Origin: Planctomycetota bacterium | GTDB taxonomy: Bacteria > Planctomycetota > SZUA-567 > H5-PLA8 | DNA length: 64,000 bases | NCBI GenBank assembly: GCA_016200135.1 | Contig: JACQFI010000083.1 | Location: 1 to 64,000, forward strand | Direction: 5' to 3' | Shown: piece after piece, positions 17,751-26,433 of the stretch | Position numbering within the stretch: position 1 is the stretch's first letter | How the letters are laid out: each line of letters opens with the position of its first letter | Program-made: the position numbers and the translations under genes | Notes under the pieces: generated by a model | The model's database searches: none | The model's input: only the letters and a program-made list of their open reading frames with translations | Told to the model about the DNA's origin: nothing

Positions 17751-19070
17751 ATGCGCATCTTGCATTGCGCCGACATCCACTTAGGCCGCAAGCGCCTCAA
17801 CGGACGCCTTCCGGACGCCGACTTCGCGGCGGCGCTCGGCCACGTTGTGTCGCGCGCGGTGGAATGGAAGGCGCACGTCTTCCTGATCGCAGGCGACCTA
17901 TACGATACGCCTCAGATTCCTCCGCCTGTGTTGCGCCAAGCCGCCGAGGCGCTCGCACCGCTGAAGAAGGCGAAGATCCCCGTCATCGCTATCGAAGGCA
18001 ACCACGACCGGCAAGGGGTCGGAACGCAGTCACCCACCTGGGTCCGCTATCTGGCGGAAGACGGTCTGCTCAAGCTGCTCACCACTCCTTTCACGGCCCA
18101 AGGTCCCGTACTCACGCCTTACGATGCCCATACGGGCATGGGCTCGCTCTTGGAACTCGGCGGCGTGCGGTTTGTCGGCGCGGGCTACCTCGGCGCGGGA
18201 ACCGAACGCAAAGCCCTCGCGATTGCCAAGGCATTGCCCGCGGATTCGAAATCCACGGTCATGCTCCTGCATGCGGGTCCCGAGTACTTCGTCGGTGAAG
18301 GCGGCGGATTCTCGAAAGAGACGCTTGCGGCCTTGCGCGAAAAGATCGGGTATCTCGCGCTGGGGCATATTCACCGCCCCATGCAGCACAACGACGAGAG
18401 CGGGCGGCCGTGGGCGATCAATCCCGGTTCGCCCGAGAACTGCCGCCTGGACGAAGCCGACATCAAAGGACCGCGCGGCTGGGCGGAGATCGACTTGGAG
18501 CCCAACGCGCTTCCGGGACTGGCCGTGCTTCACGCGGAGATCAGAGACTGCCCGCGCCGCCCGGTCGTCCGCCTGGAACTAGACGTCTCAAATTTCGGCA
18601 ACAAGCTCAAAGAGGGCGCAGAAGCAATTGCAGCGGCAGCGGTAAAATCGATTGAAGCCAAAAACGTTGCGCCGGAGAGCGCCGTGCGGCTCTTCCTTAG
18701 CGGAGATCTGAACATCGGCCGCATCTCGCTGGAACCGTTGAGCTTGGGCGCGAGCATAGCGGACAAGGCCAAGGTCGCGGGCGTTGAGATTGACTTGGGC
18801 GGATTGAAGCTCTTTACCGGCCGCCCGGGCGAGCGCCGCTCCACGGATGGGCTCTCTACGGCGGAAATCGAGCGCCTGGCGATCGAAGAAGTGCTGCGCG
18901 CCCGGCCGCCGGCGGGACTTGAAGAACACGCGGCCGATGTGGCGACGTTTTATGCGAAGTTGAAGGACCTTGTTGCGCGAGGCGCGGGACCCGATGCGGT
19001 CCTCGAACTGTTAGAGTCTTCCCATCTGCCGGCAGCGATGGCGAAGGATCTCGAGAAGAGTCTTCTTTAA
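17751..19070 (+). CDS. sbcD: Exonuclease SbcD (Mre11-like nuclease)
   Basis: 439 residues. The metallophosphoesterase motifs stand in order: HCADIHLGR (residue about 6), AGDLYD, EGNHDR, LLHAGPEY and LGHIHRP. The remaining 200 residues form the capping and SbcC-binding part. SbcD forms with SbcC the nuclease complex that opens hairpin and blocked DNA ends. Its partner gene is not adjacent but about 4.4 kb downstream on the same strand (23449), with minus-strand genes in between. The 130 bases between the SRP promoter and this gene show no clear promoter. Confidence 0.93.
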   Translation: MRILHCADIHLGRKRLNGRLPDADFAAALGHVVSRAVEWKAHVFLIAGDLYDTPQIPPPVLRQAAEALAPLKKAKIPVIAIEGNHDRQGVGTQSPTWVRYLAEDGLLKLLTTPFTAQGPVLTPYDAHTGMGSLLELGGVRFVGAGYLGAGTERKALAIAKALPADSKSTVMLLHAGPEYFVGEGGGFSKETLAALREKIGYLALGHIHRPMQHNDESGRPWAINPGSPENCRLDEADIKGPRGWAEIDLEPNALPGLAVLHAEIRDCPRRPVVRLELDVSNFGNKLKEGAEAIAAAAVKSIEAKNVAPESAVRLFLSGDLNIGRISLEPLSLGASIADKAKVAGVEIDLGGLKLFTGRPGERRSTDGLSTAEIERLAIEEVLRARPPAGLEEHAADVATFYAKLKDLVARGAGPDAVLELLESSHLPAAMAKDLEKSLL

Positions 19071-19097: not shown

Positions 19098-20401
19098 TCA
19101 ATTTTTCAGGTCGTAGCACACCATCTTATCGGCGTAGCGCACGTAGACTTTTCCGTATGCCATCGCCGGCGCGGCGTAGGCAGGCGTCTCTTCCACCTTA
19201 AATACCTGCATCTCAGCGAGCTTTACGTATGCGCCGGGGGTTGCCTCCACGAGTCCAAGTTGGCCTTTGTAACTCAGGCAGAGCAAGCAGCCATCCACGA
19301 GAATCAGCGTCCCATTACCGAAAGCTCGCGTGGACCACTTTTCCGAGCCCGTCTTCAACTCGACACACTTCAAAGTCGCATTGGCGTCGTTCCCGTTCCC
19401 CGAAAAGGAATAGACGTACCCGTCTCTTACGACCGGCGAAGAAGAACAGGCGGAGATGGCCTTGCTCACGGGCAGAGCGAGACAGGCTTATCCTCTTTGA
19501 TCTCAAACGCCTGGCATCCGGTTCCATAGCCGGTCGTAAGGAACAGACTCGAGCCTTCGACCGCAGGCAAATTCGCGTGGCAATCGTATGCCGTCTTCCA
19601 GGGGATCTGCCAGAGGAACTTGCCTGTTCCGGGATCCAGGCCCCGCAGACCGTCGCTCGCCCACGCCATCAGCACGTCCTTGCCGTCCAGCTTGAGCACC
19701 GCGAGCGGCGCCCAACTGCCCGGTGCGTTGGGCGATTTCCAGTCGAGTTTGCCGGTCGCTTTATCGTAGGCCAGCACGAGGGGAGCGTTTGGACCTTGGG
19801 CATATCCTCCGACTTTCACGAGGATATCCTTGCCGTAGATCACCGGCGATCCGCAGACGCCCCAATACGGAACCTGCGTCTTGCTGTCGTCGAGCGCATT
19901 GATGAGCCACTTTTGAGCGCCGGTCTTCAGGTCCCAGCACGCGAGATGGCCGTACACGCCAAGCGTATACACGCAATCGCCCTCGATCACCAGCGTCGCC
20001 CGGGCTCCGTTGCCGATGCCGTCCCATTTCTTTACCGATTTTGCGGTAACTTCCTTCATCCAAAGCTTCGTGCCCTTTTCCGCGTCGAAGGCGAACACCA
20101 GGTCCTGCTCGTCGTTGCGGCCCATGACCACCACGGCCCCGCGCGCGATCACTGGACTGCTGGCCGAGCCGCTGAATTTCGGATCGCCCGCGGCGAGTTC
20201 GGCCGTCTCCCAAACCTTTCGCAGGCCGCCGCTCCAGTCTTTGCAAATACCGGAAGCCGCGCTCTTTCCGTCGCCCGCAACGCCCCGACCGGTGGGTCAC
20301 TCGTCGCCGGAAGTAGCACCTGAAGCGTTGGCCTGTGCAACCAAAGCGAGCAGGCAGAACAGCGCGATCCATGCGGCGGTGTGGTCCTTAGTGCGAAACA
20401 T
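19098..20401 (-). pseudogene. Secreted BamB/PQQ-like beta-propeller, inactivated by a stop codon and a frameshift
   Basis: An ATG at 20401 follows AAGGAG and starts a clear signal peptide (WIALFCLLALVAQANA). Codon 35 is TGA (20297-20299), where the family has the Trp of a (D/E)WP..RG motif: the frame reads GDE-stop-PTGRG and stays open after it. A second lesion, one base gained or lost near 19466-19470, breaks the frame between ...EIKEDKPVSL and KAISACSSSPVV. Both downstream parts keep intact propeller repeats (WDLKTGAQKW, GLDPGTGKFLW) to the end. Full length would be about 430 residues. Two lesions make it a recent pseudogene unless the sequence has errors. The same family is intact at four other places in the window. 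Confidence 0.75.
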
Positions 20402-20441: not shown

Positions 20442-21635
20442 CTACTTGCGCACTTGCTTGTCGGTAAGCGCTTGAGGCTTTAGCGCGCCGGCGTCCTGGG
20501 GAACGCTGAAGATTTTAAAGGTCTTGGTGCTCCAGAATCCGCTGAGGTAGATCGTGTTGGTGTCCGGCGTATAGGTGAAGAACCAGGTCGGGTTGCCGCC
20601 CGCCGCCTTGCCGCCGAACGTAAGCCGGCCGGTCTCGGGGTCGCGCTTGTAATAGCCCAGGCCGGCCGCGGGTGACTCTGGCCCGCCGCAGAAATAGCCG
20701 ATCCGGCCGTCCGAGGTGAAGGCCATTCGCGCAAGACCGCCAAGCTTGCTGATCTCCATCTTCTCGGCGAAGGTCAGCGCGCCGGTATTCGCATCGCGTT
20801 TGAAGATCGCGCCGAAGCTTTTGCTGCCGCCAGGTTTCCCATAATCGTAGCGCGTGCAGAAATAGACGTGCTTGCCGTCCGGCGAGACAAACAGGTTGTT
20901 GCTGTCCGCGCTGCTCGGTAGATCGGGGATTTCAACGGACGAGGCGTACGCCAATTTTCCATCCTTATCGCTATTCAGCCAGCCGATGCCCTCCGCGCTC
21001 ACGGAATAGAAATGCATGCCGTCGGGCGAAGGCACCATTCCGCCGCCTATGCCTTTGCCAACGATCTTGTTTCCTAAAGTAGGCTTGCCGTCGGCCGGAT
21101 CGAGGTTGACCTCGATTACGCAGTGAGCAAATTGCGCGCAGAGATAGAAAAGATTGGGATTGGACGACGGCACCATGCCCGCGACGGCGATGCACGGCAA
21201 CTCGCCAAGCTTGGTAAAAGATCCGTTCTTGGGATCTACTTTGTACCACCTAAGCCCAATGCTGTGTTCGTCTCCATGGGCATGGGTCCATGCGCCCCCG
21301 ACGTACAGAATGTTCTTGTTGGATACGGTGTAATTCAGATCGACGTGGGTGCCGGTCCGCTGCAGCTCCGTCGCGACGTTTACGGAATTCAGAAACTTGA
21401 GGTCACCGGTCTTCTCGTCACGGCTGAAGCTGTTGATCGTCCCGCTGTGGTGAACCGAAAGGAAAAACATCGGCCCCGTAACGTAGGTCTGCCAGGCCCA
21501 GTCCAGTTTCAGGTCGCCTTCCTCTTTTATTTCAGTCTTCAACTTGGGCATCAGTTCGTCGACGGGCTGGCCCGCCCATGCGTGAATGGCACAGACAAGC
21601 ACCGGCGCCGCAAGCACGAGATAGATGTTTTTCAT
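20442..21635 (-). CDS. Secreted lactonase-like seven-bladed beta-propeller protein
   Basis: 397 residues from the ATG at 21635, which follows a perfect AAGGAGG. A signal peptide (YLVLAAPVLVCAIHAWA) ends near residue 21. The rest shows repeated propeller blades of the 6-phosphogluconolactonase-like family: FSRDEKTGDLKFLNSV, YKVDPKNGSFTKLGEL, FKRDANTGALTFAEKM, YKRDPETGRLTFGGKA. It should be periplasmic or exported. Enzyme activity cannot be claimed from the fold alone. It lies 134 bases after the SBP-AraC regulator gene, in the same direction, with a direct-repeat site in between, so it may be the regulator's target. Confidence 0.8.
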   Translation of the reverse strand: MKNIYLVLAAPVLVCAIHAWAGQPVDELMPKLKTEIKEEGDLKLDWAWQTYVTGPMFFLSVHHSGTINSFSRDEKTGDLKFLNSVNVATELQRTGTHVDLNYTVSNKNILYVGGAWTHAHGDEHSIGLRWYKVDPKNGSFTKLGELPCIAVAGMVPSSNPNLFYLCAQFAHCVIEVNLDPADGKPTLGNKIVGKGIGGGMVPSPDGMHFYSVSAEGIGWLNSDKDGKLAYASSVEIPDLPSSADSNNLFVSPDGKHVYFCTRYDYGKPGGSKSFGAIFKRDANTGALTFAEKMEISKLGGLARMAFTSDGRIGYFCGGPESPAAGLGYYKRDPETGRLTFGGKAAGGNPTWFFTYTPDTNTIYLSGFWSTKTFKIFSVPQDAGALKPQALTDKQVRK

Positions 21636-21731
21636 GGATGGCCTCCTTCGGTTGAACGCGGCGAATCGCCGCATCGCGGTGATACCATATACGCCGTTGC
21701 GCACGCGCATTGTCCGCGGAGGAATTGCCGC

Positions 21732-21759
21732 AATCCGACATTTGATGCCTGAATCCGAC
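21732..21759. promoter_or_regulatory. Direct repeat AATCCGAC, 20 bp apart (candidate AraC-type site)
   Basis: The octamer AATCCGAC occurs at 21732-21739 and 21752-21759, start-to-start distance 20 bp (about two helical turns). AraC-family proteins bind direct half-sites about 20-21 bp apart. The site lies between the SBP-AraC regulator gene and the lactonase-like gene. Confidence 0.4.
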
Positions 21760-21769
21760 GGCCAACGAG

Positions 21770-23302
21770 CTATCGCGGCAGTTCGCCGCGTATGCGGGCA
21801 AGTTCGCGCCGGCGCATCTGCACGGCGCTGCAGCCCCAATGCTGCTGGCAGAGCCGGCTGAAAGACGTCGCGCTTCCGACGCCGATGCGCGCGGCGATCT
21901 CCTTAAAGCTGAGCGTCACATCGCCTAGTAGGTCTTTCGCGCGTTCGATGCGCCGCTTGGCCAGATAAGCGCGGCAGGACTGGTTCAATTCGCGCTGGAA
22001 CAGCCGGTTGACGTAATCCGGGTTGCGCTTCACGGACTCGGCCACTTGCATCACGCTGTGAATTTCCGCCAAATTCTCTTCGATATAGACCGTCGCTTTC
22101 CGCACGATCTCATCCGCGACCGAGCGCAACGCGAGCTTGTGGCTCTCGGACATCAGGCGTTTGAGCCACTCCTCGCCCGAAACACCGTCCGCAAGCGCGC
22201 CGCAGAACGTCTCTTCTAGCCGGCGGAGGTCCGGATCGTAGAAGTCGGGAGCATGCGCGCGCAGGCCCCTCATCGAACCTGCCGCATCGCGATAGAAGAG
22301 CTTCTTTTCCAACACCACTGCGTCGTGCCAGATTTCCTTCTGCGCCGGGAACGCGGCGCCACCTGCGCGCTCAAGCTTGAGCGTGAACTCCGGCGCAGTG
22401 ATGGCTTGAAGGACCTCCAAGGCCACATCCAGCGAGGCCGTGTTATGTGGCACGCACCAGAGACTGCCATACATCGCGGAAACCGGCGCTTCCGCGGACG
22501 GGCCGCGCGGGAACGGCAGGATGCGGATCTTGGTGAGCAGATGGTACGGAAAGCTCTTGAGCATCGAAGGCCAGCCGAAAACATACGCGAAGCGGCCTTC
22601 GCGGAACTGGTCCATCGTCGCGTTCTTTTCGGGATACAGGTCGGCGGGATAATTCAGCAACCGCTGCGCGCATAAGCGCTGCGCCCAACCGTACGCTTGC
22701 AGGAGCCGCGTCCGGTCCTGCACGATCCGTTCCAGGCCTCCGCCCACATCTACGCCGTTGGATCCCAATAAGGAGACGAAAAATCCATACCGGTGCGTGG
22801 GCCCGCCCTCTTGCGCCCTCAAAAGCTGCCCGCGATCATGCACGGCAAACCAGTTGAGCTGGCGCTCTAATTCCGCCCAAGTCGCAGGCGGCTGGAACCG
22901 GTTGCGCTGGAGCACGTCGGTCCGGACCATGAGCGAGTAAGGGGTCACATCTTCAGGAAGGGCGAATAGAGAACCGTTTCGCGAACCGAGGTCCAGCGCG
23001 CCCAAGGCGAATCGCGAGCGCGCGCGCGGCGGAAAGGCCGCATCCAAGCAGCGCAGCCAGCCGTGCCTCAAGAATGCATTGAGTTCCCTCGAGCGCAGGG
23101 GGAAGACGCACAGTGAAGTCCACGGCGCGTTCATCTCTCGCGAGAGCAACGTGACGAGGTTGCCGTCCAGTTTGGAGACGCTTCGAATATCCCATTCGTG
23201 CTCGGGATAGCGCCGCTTTAGCGGCTCAAATGCGTCCTCAAAGCTTACGGCATCATAGACCCAGGCCGTGAGACGCCGCTTTCGATTTGCCGTTCGCGCC
23301 AT
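21770..23302 (-). CDS. Fusion regulator: solute-binding-protein domain + AraC-type DNA-binding domain
   Basis: 510 residues. Residues 1 to about 370 look like a type 1/8 extracellular solute-binding protein of sugar ABC importers: LPEDVTPYSLMVRTDVL, PPATWAELERQLNWF, MDQFREGRFAYVFGWPSM, CVPHNTASLDVALEVLQAIT. No signal peptide or lipobox is present (it starts MARTANRKRRL). The last 100 residues are an AraC/XylS HTH domain: VAESVKRNPDYVNRLFQREL, RRIERAKDLLGDVTLSFKEI, GVGSATSFSRLCQQHWGCS. I infer a cytoplasmic regulator that senses a sugar-like ligand through a periplasmic-protein fold. The most likely target is the lactonase-like gene just downstream. The substrate is unknown. Confidence 0.85.
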   Translation of the reverse strand: MARTANRKRRLTAWVYDAVSFEDAFEPLKRRYPEHEWDIRSVSKLDGNLVTLLSREMNAPWTSLCVFPLRSRELNAFLRHGWLRCLDAAFPPRARSRFALGALDLGSRNGSLFALPEDVTPYSLMVRTDVLQRNRFQPPATWAELERQLNWFAVHDRGQLLRAQEGGPTHRYGFFVSLLGSNGVDVGGGLERIVQDRTRLLQAYGWAQRLCAQRLLNYPADLYPEKNATMDQFREGRFAYVFGWPSMLKSFPYHLLTKIRILPFPRGPSAEAPVSAMYGSLWCVPHNTASLDVALEVLQAITAPEFTLKLERAGGAAFPAQKEIWHDAVVLEKKLFYRDAAGSMRGLRAHAPDFYDPDLRRLEETFCGALADGVSGEEWLKRLMSESHKLALRSVADEIVRKATVYIEENLAEIHSVMQVAESVKRNPDYVNRLFQRELNQSCRAYLAKRRIERAKDLLGDVTLSFKEIAARIGVGSATSFSRLCQQHWGCSAVQMRRRELARIRGELPR

Positions 23303-23448: not shown

Positions 23449-26433
23449 ATGCTGATTCGCTCGATTCGCTTGCTGAACATCAAATCCTTCGGGACCGGCG
23501 GCGACGGCAGCGGCGTGCTTGTCTCCTTTGAGCGCGGCCTGAACCGGCTCGCAGGGCCTAACGGTGCGGGTAAGTCCACGGTCATCGAGGCCCTCGGATA
23601 CGTGCTGTTCGGCCACGAGCCCGACACCGGCGCGCGCCTGGACCTCGAAACGCTTCTGCTCCGCAACGGCGCGCGCGAAGGCGAGATCGAGGCCGAGATC
23701 GAGACCGCGGACGGCCGCTTTCTGGTCAAACGCGGTGTCGGCAAACAGTCGAAGACGCGCTGGATCGTGCGCGATCCCGCCGGCTTTGTCACCCATGAGA
23801 CCGAGGACGAAGTCCGACGCTTCCTGGCTGCCGCAGCAGGCCTGCCCCATCCCGATGGGCTTTCCGATCTCTACCGCAAACTGGTCGGCGTCCGGCAGGG
23901 CCGCTTGATCGATCCGTTCGAAGTCACGCCGGCCGAAGCGCGAAGGCATTTCGCGCCGATTCTCGATGTCGAGATCTTTCAGCGCTGCTTCGGCGATTTA
24001 CTTGAGCCCGTGCGCCTGTTGGAACGCGAGACGGGCGAGGAACTCCGCAAGCGGGATACGGCTCGCGCCCAGGCCGAACTGCTTGCGAGCGCGCCCGAAG
24101 AAGCCGAACGGCTTGCCGAACGGCTCGCGAAAGCGGAGTCCTCTATCGAAGCGGCGCGCGGCGAACTGGCCAAGGTACGCGAAGGCTTGGCCGTTCATGA
24201 GGCCAAGGAGCGGTCCATTCCCGCCGCGCGAGCGGCCCTGGAAGCCGCGCGAAAGGACGTCGAGAACGCGGATAAGAGTTTGATGGGACGGCGGGAGCTC
24301 CTGCAGCGCGCCGAACAGGCACGCAAGGTTCTCGAAGAAAATCTCGAGCCCCACCAGGCGTACCTGAAAGCCCACGAAGATTTCACGGCGGCCTCGGCCG
24401 GACGCGGCAAGTTCGACGGCGTGCGCGAGCGCTGCGCGGCGGTGAAACAGCAACTCGCTGCATCGCAGGCCCAGGCGCAGGAGACCGACCGCCAGGCGCG
24501 AGAGTCCATGAGCGCGATCGAGAAACGCAAGGCGGACCTGGCCGCCATGCACGCCGCCATCGAGCGGAAGCGCAAGCACAACGAGGCCGCGGCAAACGGC
24601 GCCCTCGAACCCTTGAACCCGGCCACACTTTCCGCGGCGCGCGAAGCCCTCTTTGCCGCGGAACGCTGGGCGGCCGATCTCAATGCGGCAAGCAAGAGCG
24701 CGAGACAGGCGGGTCTGGATGCTTCGGAGGCCAACCGCAAGCTGGCGCATTTTGACCCGCAGACCGTCCAGCGCGCGAACGCCGCCCGCGACGCCGCGCG
24801 ACAGGCGCTTGAGGCCAAGCGGACCGAGGTCACGGAGTTGGATGCGCGGCGCAAGTCACGGCGCGAGATGTCCCGCGTGTTGGAACAATCGCAACATTGC
24901 CCACTGATGGCCGAACGCTGCAAACAATTCGACTCGGGCAAGCTGGTACTCTCCGAGGTCCAGCTTGACGAGACGCTCGACGACCTCCGCAAGGAGTCCG
25001 TCGCGGCCGAGGCCTCATTCAAACGCTTTGAGGAAGCCGCCCAGGCCGCGCAGAAAGAAGTCGAGGCGACGCAAGAGACGCGAATCCATGCCAACCGTGC
25101 GCTGATCGATCTCGGCCGCCACCAGGACTTAGCGCTGAATGACGAACCCCGGCAGGCTTGGGCAGTCGCCGCCAAGTCGTTCGCGCCGCCGGGCAGAGAT
25201 CCCCTGCCGCTGCCCGATTTGCTCGCGCTGCCCAACCCCGGCATGGAGCCTTGGAAGGCGCTCGAGACGGCCGGCGCCGCCGCGGATTCCTTCTGCGCAT
25301 TCGCAAAATCGGTCGGAGAAGCCGTGGCCCGCTGGCGCACAAGCCTGGACGAGCGCCTCCAAGCCAGCCAGGAGCGGCAACTGCGGAAGGAGCAGGAGCG
25401 CCACGATCTCGACGCGGAGGCCCAGCGCATCGCGGAGCGCGAGGAAGAACTCAAGCGGATGGAAGCCGCGCACGCCAAATTGGTCGAACGCACGCGGGAG
25501 GCGCTCACCACCGCGGAGGGACTCGCCAAGTCGCTGGAAACGGTGGCGGCCAAGCAGGTGGAACTGGAGGCGCTGGAATCTCGTGCCGCCCAAGCCGAGC
25601 AGCAGCGTTCGACGCATGCGGATGCGCACCAGAAATATGTGGCCGCCGAAGCCGATGCCCGGAGGCTCGATCAGGTCCGCGCAGACGTTGCTTTAGGTCT
25701 GGGCGATCTGGAGCGCGCACGAGCCTCCGCCCACGCGGCCCTCGAAGCGCGCGACCGCGCCATCACCGCCTACAATGCCCAGGCGCACGCGGATGCCCGG
25801 AAGGAACTGGAGGCGTCCGCCGGCAAAGTCATGGCACTGGAACGAGATCTCATGCGCGACCGCGAGCAGTTCGAAGGCGCGCAGCGGCGCGCCCGGCAAC
25901 TCATGGCCGCGCGGGAGGCGTGGAACGCGAGCGAGGCCAGGCGCGCGCTTTTGGATGCGCGCCGGGAACTCCTGGAACATGCGCGCAAAACGCTGCGCGA
26001 TGCGGGGCCAAAAGTCGCCGAGCATCTCGTACACGCGGTCAATGCCCGGGCACAGCGCATCTATACGGCGCTCTCGCCAAACGATCCGGGCCAGCTCGAC
26101 TGGCAGACCGACTACGAACTCCGTGTGGCCACGTCCAACGGCACGCGCCGGTTTGCGATGCTTTCCGGCGGGCAGAAGGTTAAAGCGGCCCTCGCGATCC
26201 AGATTGCGCTCGTCCAGCAATTCAGCGCAGCGGGGTTATGCGTATTCGACGAGCCAACCTACGCGCTGGACGCCGAGTCCCGCGGACTGCTTGCGGAAGC
26301 GATCGCGGAGGCGCAGGCCGTCACGAAGTTCGAGCAGCTCTTCGTAGTCTCCCACGACGATGCGTTCGACGGCCACGTCGAGCACACAGTCTCCTTGAAG
26401 TACGCTCCCGCCACGGGATCCCTCATCGAATAA
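23449..26433 (+). CDS. sbcC: Exonuclease subunit SbcC (Rad50-like SMC ATPase)
   Basis: 994 residues. The Walker A GPNGAGKST is at residues 36-44. Long Ala/Glu/Arg-rich coiled coils follow on both sides of a central pair of Cys (484 and 491, HCPLMAERCK). The ABC signature LSGGQKVKAAL is at about 905, and Walker B CVFDEPTYALDAES at about 930. It is the ATPase partner of SbcD in the double-strand-end nuclease. The central hook has six residues between the cysteines rather than the usual CxxC of Rad50/SbcC. It has its own Shine-Dalgarno (CGGAGAG). A terminator hairpin follows six bases after the stop. Confidence 0.93.
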   Translation: MLIRSIRLLNIKSFGTGGDGSGVLVSFERGLNRLAGPNGAGKSTVIEALGYVLFGHEPDTGARLDLETLLLRNGAREGEIEAEIETADGRFLVKRGVGKQSKTRWIVRDPAGFVTHETEDEVRRFLAAAAGLPHPDGLSDLYRKLVGVRQGRLIDPFEVTPAEARRHFAPILDVEIFQRCFGDLLEPVRLLERETGEELRKRDTARAQAELLASAPEEAERLAERLAKAESSIEAARGELAKVREGLAVHEAKERSIPAARAALEAARKDVENADKSLMGRRELLQRAEQARKVLEENLEPHQAYLKAHEDFTAASAGRGKFDGVRERCAAVKQQLAASQAQAQETDRQARESMSAIEKRKADLAAMHAAIERKRKHNEAAANGALEPLNPATLSAAREALFAAERWAADLNAASKSARQAGLDASEANRKLAHFDPQTVQRANAARDAARQALEAKRTEVTELDARRKSRREMSRVLEQSQHCPLMAERCKQFDSGKLVLSEVQLDETLDDLRKESVAAEASFKRFEEAAQAAQKEVEATQETRIHANRALIDLGRHQDLALNDEPRQAWAVAAKSFAPPGRDPLPLPDLLALPNPGMEPWKALETAGAAADSFCAFAKSVGEAVARWRTSLDERLQASQERQLRKEQERHDLDAEAQRIAEREEELKRMEAAHAKLVERTREALTTAEGLAKSLETVAAKQVELEALESRAAQAEQQRSTHADAHQKYVAAEADARRLDQVRADVALGLGDLERARASAHAALEARDRAITAYNAQAHADARKELEASAGKVMALERDLMRDREQFEGAQRRARQLMAAREAWNASEARRALLDARRELLEHARKTLRDAGPKVAEHLVHAVNARAQRIYTALSPNDPGQLDWQTDYELRVATSNGTRRFAMLSGGQKVKAALAIQIALVQQFSAAGLCVFDEPTYALDAESRGLLAEAIAEAQAVTKFEQLFVVSHDDAFDGHVEHTVSLKYAPATGSLIE

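Follow-up and report, generated by a model that had tools for sequence, protein, structure and literature searches.

The gene at positions 21770–23302 on the reverse strand of the window (the whole 64,000-nucleotide stretch of planctomycete DNA analyzed here) encodes a 510-amino-acid protein in which a MalE-type solute-binding domain precedes an AraC-type DNA-binding domain (ATG start, stop codon included, as given by the open-reading-frame call and by the orthologs). In our judgment this protein is likely to be a cytosolic one-component regulator of the AraC/XylS family, with a MalE-type sensor and a dedicated regulon of beta-propeller and PhyH genes. Its two domains, the missing export signal, the conservation of the fusion, the spacing of the operator repeat to a -10-like element and the recurrence of the predicted sites at the same gene families were each established by comparison.

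The N-terminal binding domain (residues 1-372; 22187–23302, reverse strand) was assigned by Pfam, structure model, Foldseek, profile search and hydropathy, and the C-terminal double HTH domain (residues 397-510; 21773–22114, reverse strand) by Pfam, NCBIfam and a PDB sequence search; the secondary structure of the model places a helical linker region between them (residues 373-396; 22115–22186, reverse strand). At the C-terminus, HTH_18 matched residues 421-499 (E 2.9e-14, 53.5 bits versus a cut-off of 33.6) and HTH_AraC residues 464-498 (30.4 bits versus 26.6), both above the curated Pfam cut-offs, which places this part in the AraC/XylS family. SBP_bac_8 matched residues 103-315 (E 3.5e-9, 37.3 bits versus a cut-off of 27). 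When the 510-residue protein was searched against PDB sequences, the C-terminal part found AraC-type DNA-binding domains and the N-terminal part found TMBP, weakly. A profile built from the N-terminal parts of ten family members matched 44 distinct PDB sequences, nearly all of them sugar-binding proteins, the best being TMBP (1eu8, E 1.3e-14, profile positions 19-340 of 364). The AlphaFold model of the regulator (mean pLDDT 86.4, pTM 0.72) was compared with the PDB by Foldseek, and the top matches were sugar solute-binding proteins (SBPs) over about 400 columns, among them MalE3 (E 1.7e-18), TMBP and SmoF, with open, ligand-free forms fitting best (TM by target length 0.79 for apo MalE3 and 0.80 for an apo SQ-binding protein). 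Structure model and fold search gave the same outcome for a remote member of the family, which belongs to another class and is about 23% identical. Both lobes of an SBP are present in the regulator, which together with the family score makes the N-terminal half a MalE-type SBP, and the predicted structures confirm that a full MalE-type (type II) solute-binding fold is followed by an AraC HTH. The preliminary description, made from the sequence alone, had claimed a complete binding protein without signal peptide ahead of an AraC HTH, with a binding-protein fold in residues 1-370; Pfam, the PDB profile, AlphaFold, Foldseek and hydropathy all agree with it.

The ligand pocket was compared by aligning the ten members to TMBP through the N-terminal profile match to 1eu8. 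In TMBP, we take Trp257 and Trp295 to be the sugar-stacking residues, Asp70 to be the usual sugar-binding Asp and Tyr121 to be a pocket position. The position of Trp257 (244 in the regulator) holds Trp or Phe in nine of the ten members, and that of Tyr121 (the pocket-facing D118 of the regulator) holds Asp in all ten. The canonical sugar-binding Asp has been lost, the Asp70 position being variable within the family, as has the second stacking Trp, the Trp295 position being occupied by Ser, Thr or Lys. These two changes make the pocket different from those of known sugar binders and, since the pocket residues are partly kept and partly changed, the ligand is expected to be related to, yet distinct from, trehalose or maltose. 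The term "sugar-type" used for this domain in the preliminary description is right for its fold and family. It is quite possible, though on balance somewhat doubtful, that the sensor works as proposed with a ligand that is no sugar at all, such as a sugar acid, a lactone, a compatible solute or a compound that PhyH consumes or produces. MalE-type SBPs bind diverse solutes, the pocket is unlike that of TMBP, and the predicted regulon encodes lactonase-type propellers and a PhyH oxygenase, not enzymes of sugar catabolism; on the other hand, carbohydrate binders make up all the close PDB relatives, whether found by profile or by fold, and a stacking aromatic has been retained. We consider it unlikely that the domain has ceased to bind ligands and serves instead as a scaffold for dimerization or to dock a partner protein, which would make the regulator partner-responsive or constitutive. 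The two lost residues would suit such a role, as would the fact that the domain is only moderately conserved (45-60% between orthologs), but both lobes are intact and modeled with high confidence in two distant members, and the pocket keeps its invariant D118 and the aromatic at position 244.

The preferred reading of a cytosolic sensor is further consistent with the N-terminus of the protein. Within the first 45 residues, the best 12-residue hydropathy is 0.66, compared with 1.7-3.1 in exported SBPs of the phylum; a hydrophobic N-terminus was found in none of the ten members, unlike exported SBPs of Planctomycetota, and the regulator carries neither the signal peptide nor the lipobox of an importer SBP. 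No ABC permease genes were recognized among the annotated neighbors examined. The regulator therefore differs from the MalE-type SBPs of ABC importers (1eu8 TMBP, 6dtq MalE3 and SmoF), whose fold and family are those of its residues 1-372, in that it is not exported, has no partner permease in view and is fused to a DNA-binding domain. That it could be an exported importer protein with a fortuitous C-terminal extension is very improbable: the N-terminal half does belong by family to the ordinary importer-type SBPs, but none of the ten members has a hydrophobic N-terminus, no permease genes are seen nearby, the AraC domain is under constraint, and an operator and a regulon are predicted, and this reading was ruled out by signal and context. 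The constraint was estimated between the window's regulator and its ortholog from the same genus, with dN 0.34 and dS 1.28 in the SBP domain and dN 0.21 and dS 0.70 in the DNA-binding domain; these figures are rough because dS lies near or above 1, and they give a dN/dS of about 0.3, an excess of synonymous change, in both domains.

A PBP-type domain joined to an AraC HTH is already known from XylR and from proteins with Peripla_BP_2 and HTH_18, and the MalE-type version differs from these in the fold of its sensor. E. coli XylR, reportedly described by Ni et al. in 2013, is like the present regulator a cytosolic one-component protein with an N-terminal PBP-like sensor and a C-terminal AraC HTH (PDB 4fe4, 4fe7), but its sensor is a type I PBP of the LacI/GalR type, and homology is limited to the HTH. 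That the regulator is itself a misread XylR-type protein has next to no probability and was ruled out by fold. Its DNA-binding half matches XylR structures and the order is again sensor first and HTH last, but the XylR match is confined to residues 390-485 and the N-terminal half is SBP_bac_8 with the type II MalE fold, not Peripla_BP_1/3. Btr-type regulators likewise combine an importer-type substrate-binding domain with HTH_18, although theirs is a Peripla_BP_2 or FeuA-like domain of type III (siderophore) rather than a MalE-type one. Pfam gave no Peripla_BP_2 match in the regulator at E up to 10, and the NCBIfam Btr model matched it in the HTH part alone. In Btr-type proteins, the HTH comes first and the binding domain after it, an order also evident from the place of the HTH at 166-270 of 531 in the NCBIfam model. 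In siderophore clusters, 229 Peripla_BP_2 genes had a co-occurring domain, which was HTH_18 in 98.7% of them; for SBP_bac_8 (19 genes) and SBP_bac_1 (148 genes), the table with these counts lists none (PMC13293324). It has been remarked in general terms that SBP Pfam domains also serve as sensors in transcriptional regulators (PMC9602780), and one-component sensors have been built by linking soluble periplasmic binding proteins to DNA-binding domains (PMC6079105). Those chimeras are man-made and place the DNA-binding domain first, and the AraC family is missing from the table of DNA-binding domains (PMC6079105); the family described here would be their natural counterpart, with a MalE-type domain.

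Ten full-length homologs with the SBP and AraC architecture were found, in 4 of 392 Planctomycetota genomes: that of the window (G000), one of the same genus with three copies (G001), one of the same family with two (G004) and one with three (G045) that is the sole representative of its class among the 392 sampled. The orthologs of the window's regulator are 62% (G001) and 47% (G004) identical to it, and its own 6.1 Mb genome holds one further intact member, C125 (36%), plus the frameshifted C45. This third copy (G000:C45:34328-35793) carries a single frameshift near residue 188 and adjoins an intact PQQ_2 gene. Phylum-wide matches to the SBP profile outside the family, where their loci were inspected, were exported SBPs, fusions of SBPs to membrane proteins or unclear frames, none with an AraC domain. 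No SBP-AraC fusion occurs among 72,556 plasmid records, though SBPs and AraC proteins are both present there. A search for related loci with an alignment of six members matched only the planctomycete MAGs TGS_PLA7 and H5_PLA8, and a search with the single regulator sequence gave no match. The preliminary description had called such joined proteins rarely described, and this is borne out by the genome and plasmid counts, together with the lack of any earlier description of a MalE-type and AraC pairing in the literature searched, which left subscription papers mostly outside its scope. For the spread of the architecture outside Planctomycetota, the analysis covered the plasmid records and, in other phyla, one narrow DNA-pattern scan.

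In a tree with 16 non-fused SBPs of the phylum, the ten fused SBP domains form one clade with support of 100. The tree of the DNA-binding domains, which are short, does not group the ten members cleanly (3 changes), and a single origin of the fusion may also be compatible with it. As judged by these comparisons, the fusion is no annotation accident, since the same architecture recurs in ten homologs whose SBP domains form one clade apart from exported SBPs. The suggestion that such proteins represent a separate origin of sugar-sensing regulators stands in one part: the type II MalE fold and the single, fully supported clade point to an origin apart from LacI-type sensing, but the wider idea is not new, given XylR and the Peripla_BP_2 and HTH_18 proteins. 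On balance, we favor the view of a natural lineage of one-component regulators that goes back to a single recruitment of a MalE-type importer protein to cytosolic sensing, separate from the LacI/XylR- and FeuA-type sensors, and that has a dedicated regulon of secreted propellers and PhyH; a second cytosolic SBP in the same bacteria, translationally coupled to a GntR regulator, suggests that SBPs have become intracellular sensors repeatedly.

The neighborhood of the regulator is partly conserved. In the window and in G001, it lies between genes that we named sbcD- and sbcC-like from their sequences and is followed on the same strand by two propeller genes, the first of the lactonase type and the second of the PQQ_2 type. 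In G004, the context differs, with thyA/folA-like genes upstream, yet the regulator and both propeller genes are again together, with a PhyH dioxygenase gene inserted directly after the regulator. The lactonase-type gene (20442–21635, reverse strand), a predicted target, encodes a secreted seven-bladed beta-propeller (PF10282) and is the next gene in G001 too and the second gene downstream in G004. The PQQ_2 beta-propeller gene (19098–20305, reverse strand), also a predicted target, has an uncertain 5' end and is frameshifted near 19469, through either decay or an assembly error; it is intact in G001 and G004. In G000 as in G001, the regulator-propeller module stands between the sbcD- and sbcC-like genes (17751–19070 and 23449–26433 in the window); sbcD and sbcC are adjacent as a rule. 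Among the paralogs, a PQQ_2 gene comes next after each of C125, C45 and C146, and these three PQQ_2 genes share 68-78% mutual identity (78% for C45 versus C125), while one copy in G045 is followed by a Kelch gene and has a PQQ_2 gene in divergent orientation, and one in G004 is followed by a metallophosphoesterase gene. PQQ_2 (PF13360) is strongly expanded in the window's genome, with 121 matches in about 74 open frames; adjacency to a PQQ_2 gene alone is therefore weak evidence of a regulon and was set aside as sole proof.

Between the regulator and the lactonase-type propeller gene lies a predicted operator, the direct repeat GTCGGATTCAGGCA-TCAAAT-GTCGGATTGCGGCA with a 20-bp period (21726–21759, reverse strand), which starts 124 bp upstream of the propeller gene and follows the pattern GTCGGAWW-N12-GTCGGAWW. 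The pattern was derived from the gaps after the regulator in the window and in G001, which share synteny, and at up to 3 mismatches it occurs once in the window versus 0.02 expected by chance. In eight held-out intergenic regions of other members, the score for a 20-bp period was 74, compared with 59.9 +- 3.3 in dinucleotide shuffles (0 of 3000 reaching it), and of 27 periods compared 20 bp alone stands out. The signal is absent upstream of the regulators. Genome scans at up to 3 mismatches to the combined pattern gave two matches each in G000 and G001 and none with a reversed control; the site in G004 is 2 positions off the pattern, and a scan with a relaxed pattern at 2 mismatches was mostly noise. 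Further one-mismatch sites in G000, G002, G003 and G006 were discarded as lying inside long open frames. At the C125, C45 and C146 paralogs, the repeat is visible in an ambiguous register, and the paralogs show the same layout with other half-sites, mostly ahead of propeller genes. Direct-repeat half-sites about two helical turns apart, as in AraC/XylS-type operators, are thus present as a sequence pattern in six sites and in the held-out members.

Each of the six sites lies 102-133 bp ahead of a start codon, and in all six a TA falls exactly 68 nt from the first base of the site (TAT in five, TAC in one); none of 20,000 shuffles placed TA in more than four of six sites in one column. In the window, this TA belongs to the -10-like element TATATG (21686–21691, reverse strand), and at each of the six promoters transcription is predicted to begin some 6-8 nt beyond the corresponding element. 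We infer that the constant spacing may reflect an activator in contact with RNA polymerase, which would require it. A simple scan for promoter and terminator consensus sequences gave no excess over chance.

The sites recur at a small set of gene families. In each of the three genomes with a regulator ortholog, a predicted site precedes a PhyH dioxygenase gene. The second site in G000 is 133 bp before a PhyH gene whose product is 62% identical to the PhyH of the G004 regulator operon, and the G001 ortholog of this gene (85%) has a one-mismatch site 102 bp upstream; the second site in G001 is 105 bp ahead of a further gene for a lactonase-type propeller. PhyH orthologs (E up to 1e-40) occur in G000, G001 and G004, exactly the genomes with a regulator ortholog, and both genes are absent from the five relatives G002, G003, G005, G006 and G007. 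The predicted regulon is unusually well defined.

These observations suggest how the regulator could act, although the ligand, its binding, dimerization and activation are steps that we infer. First, a small molecule in the cytosol, probably a carbohydrate or carbohydrate-like compound, would enter the cleft, and the two lobes would close upon it. Second, the helical linker would bring the AraC domains of a dimeric regulator to the half-sites of the direct repeat. Finally, RNA polymerase would be recruited and transcription of the regulon activated, leading to expression of two propellers, one secreted and of the lactonase type and one of the PQQ_2 type, together with a PhyH-type Fe(II)/2-oxoglutarate dioxygenase.

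Such a protein would represent a further route from importer binding proteins to gene switches, by way of the large MalE-type family of sugar-binding proteins, the kind that protein engineers try to make into biosensors. It would also tie secreted lactonase- and PQQ-type propellers and PhyH dioxygenases, which are expanded yet functionally obscure in planctomycetes, to one predicted circuit. Ligand screening with a simple reporter is feasible now, because the operator, the promoter spacing and the target genes are predicted to the base.

Two other loci in the window's genome are of note for their SBPs. At L130:3602-5850 (G000:C115), the start of a signal-less SBP_bac_8 gene shares one base (TGATG) with the GntR/FCD regulator gene ahead of it, and SDR, epimerase and enolase-superfamily-like genes come next. 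Four relatives have this SBP at 67-75% identity, three of them with the GntR gene upstream, and the pair resembles a cytosolic SBP sensor in two-gene form. At L089 (G000:C112:52492-55749), a Ser/Thr protein kinase domain is followed by a likely transmembrane stretch and then by an SBP-type domain (SBP_bac_11/8), a further case in which this genome uses an SBP as a sensor.
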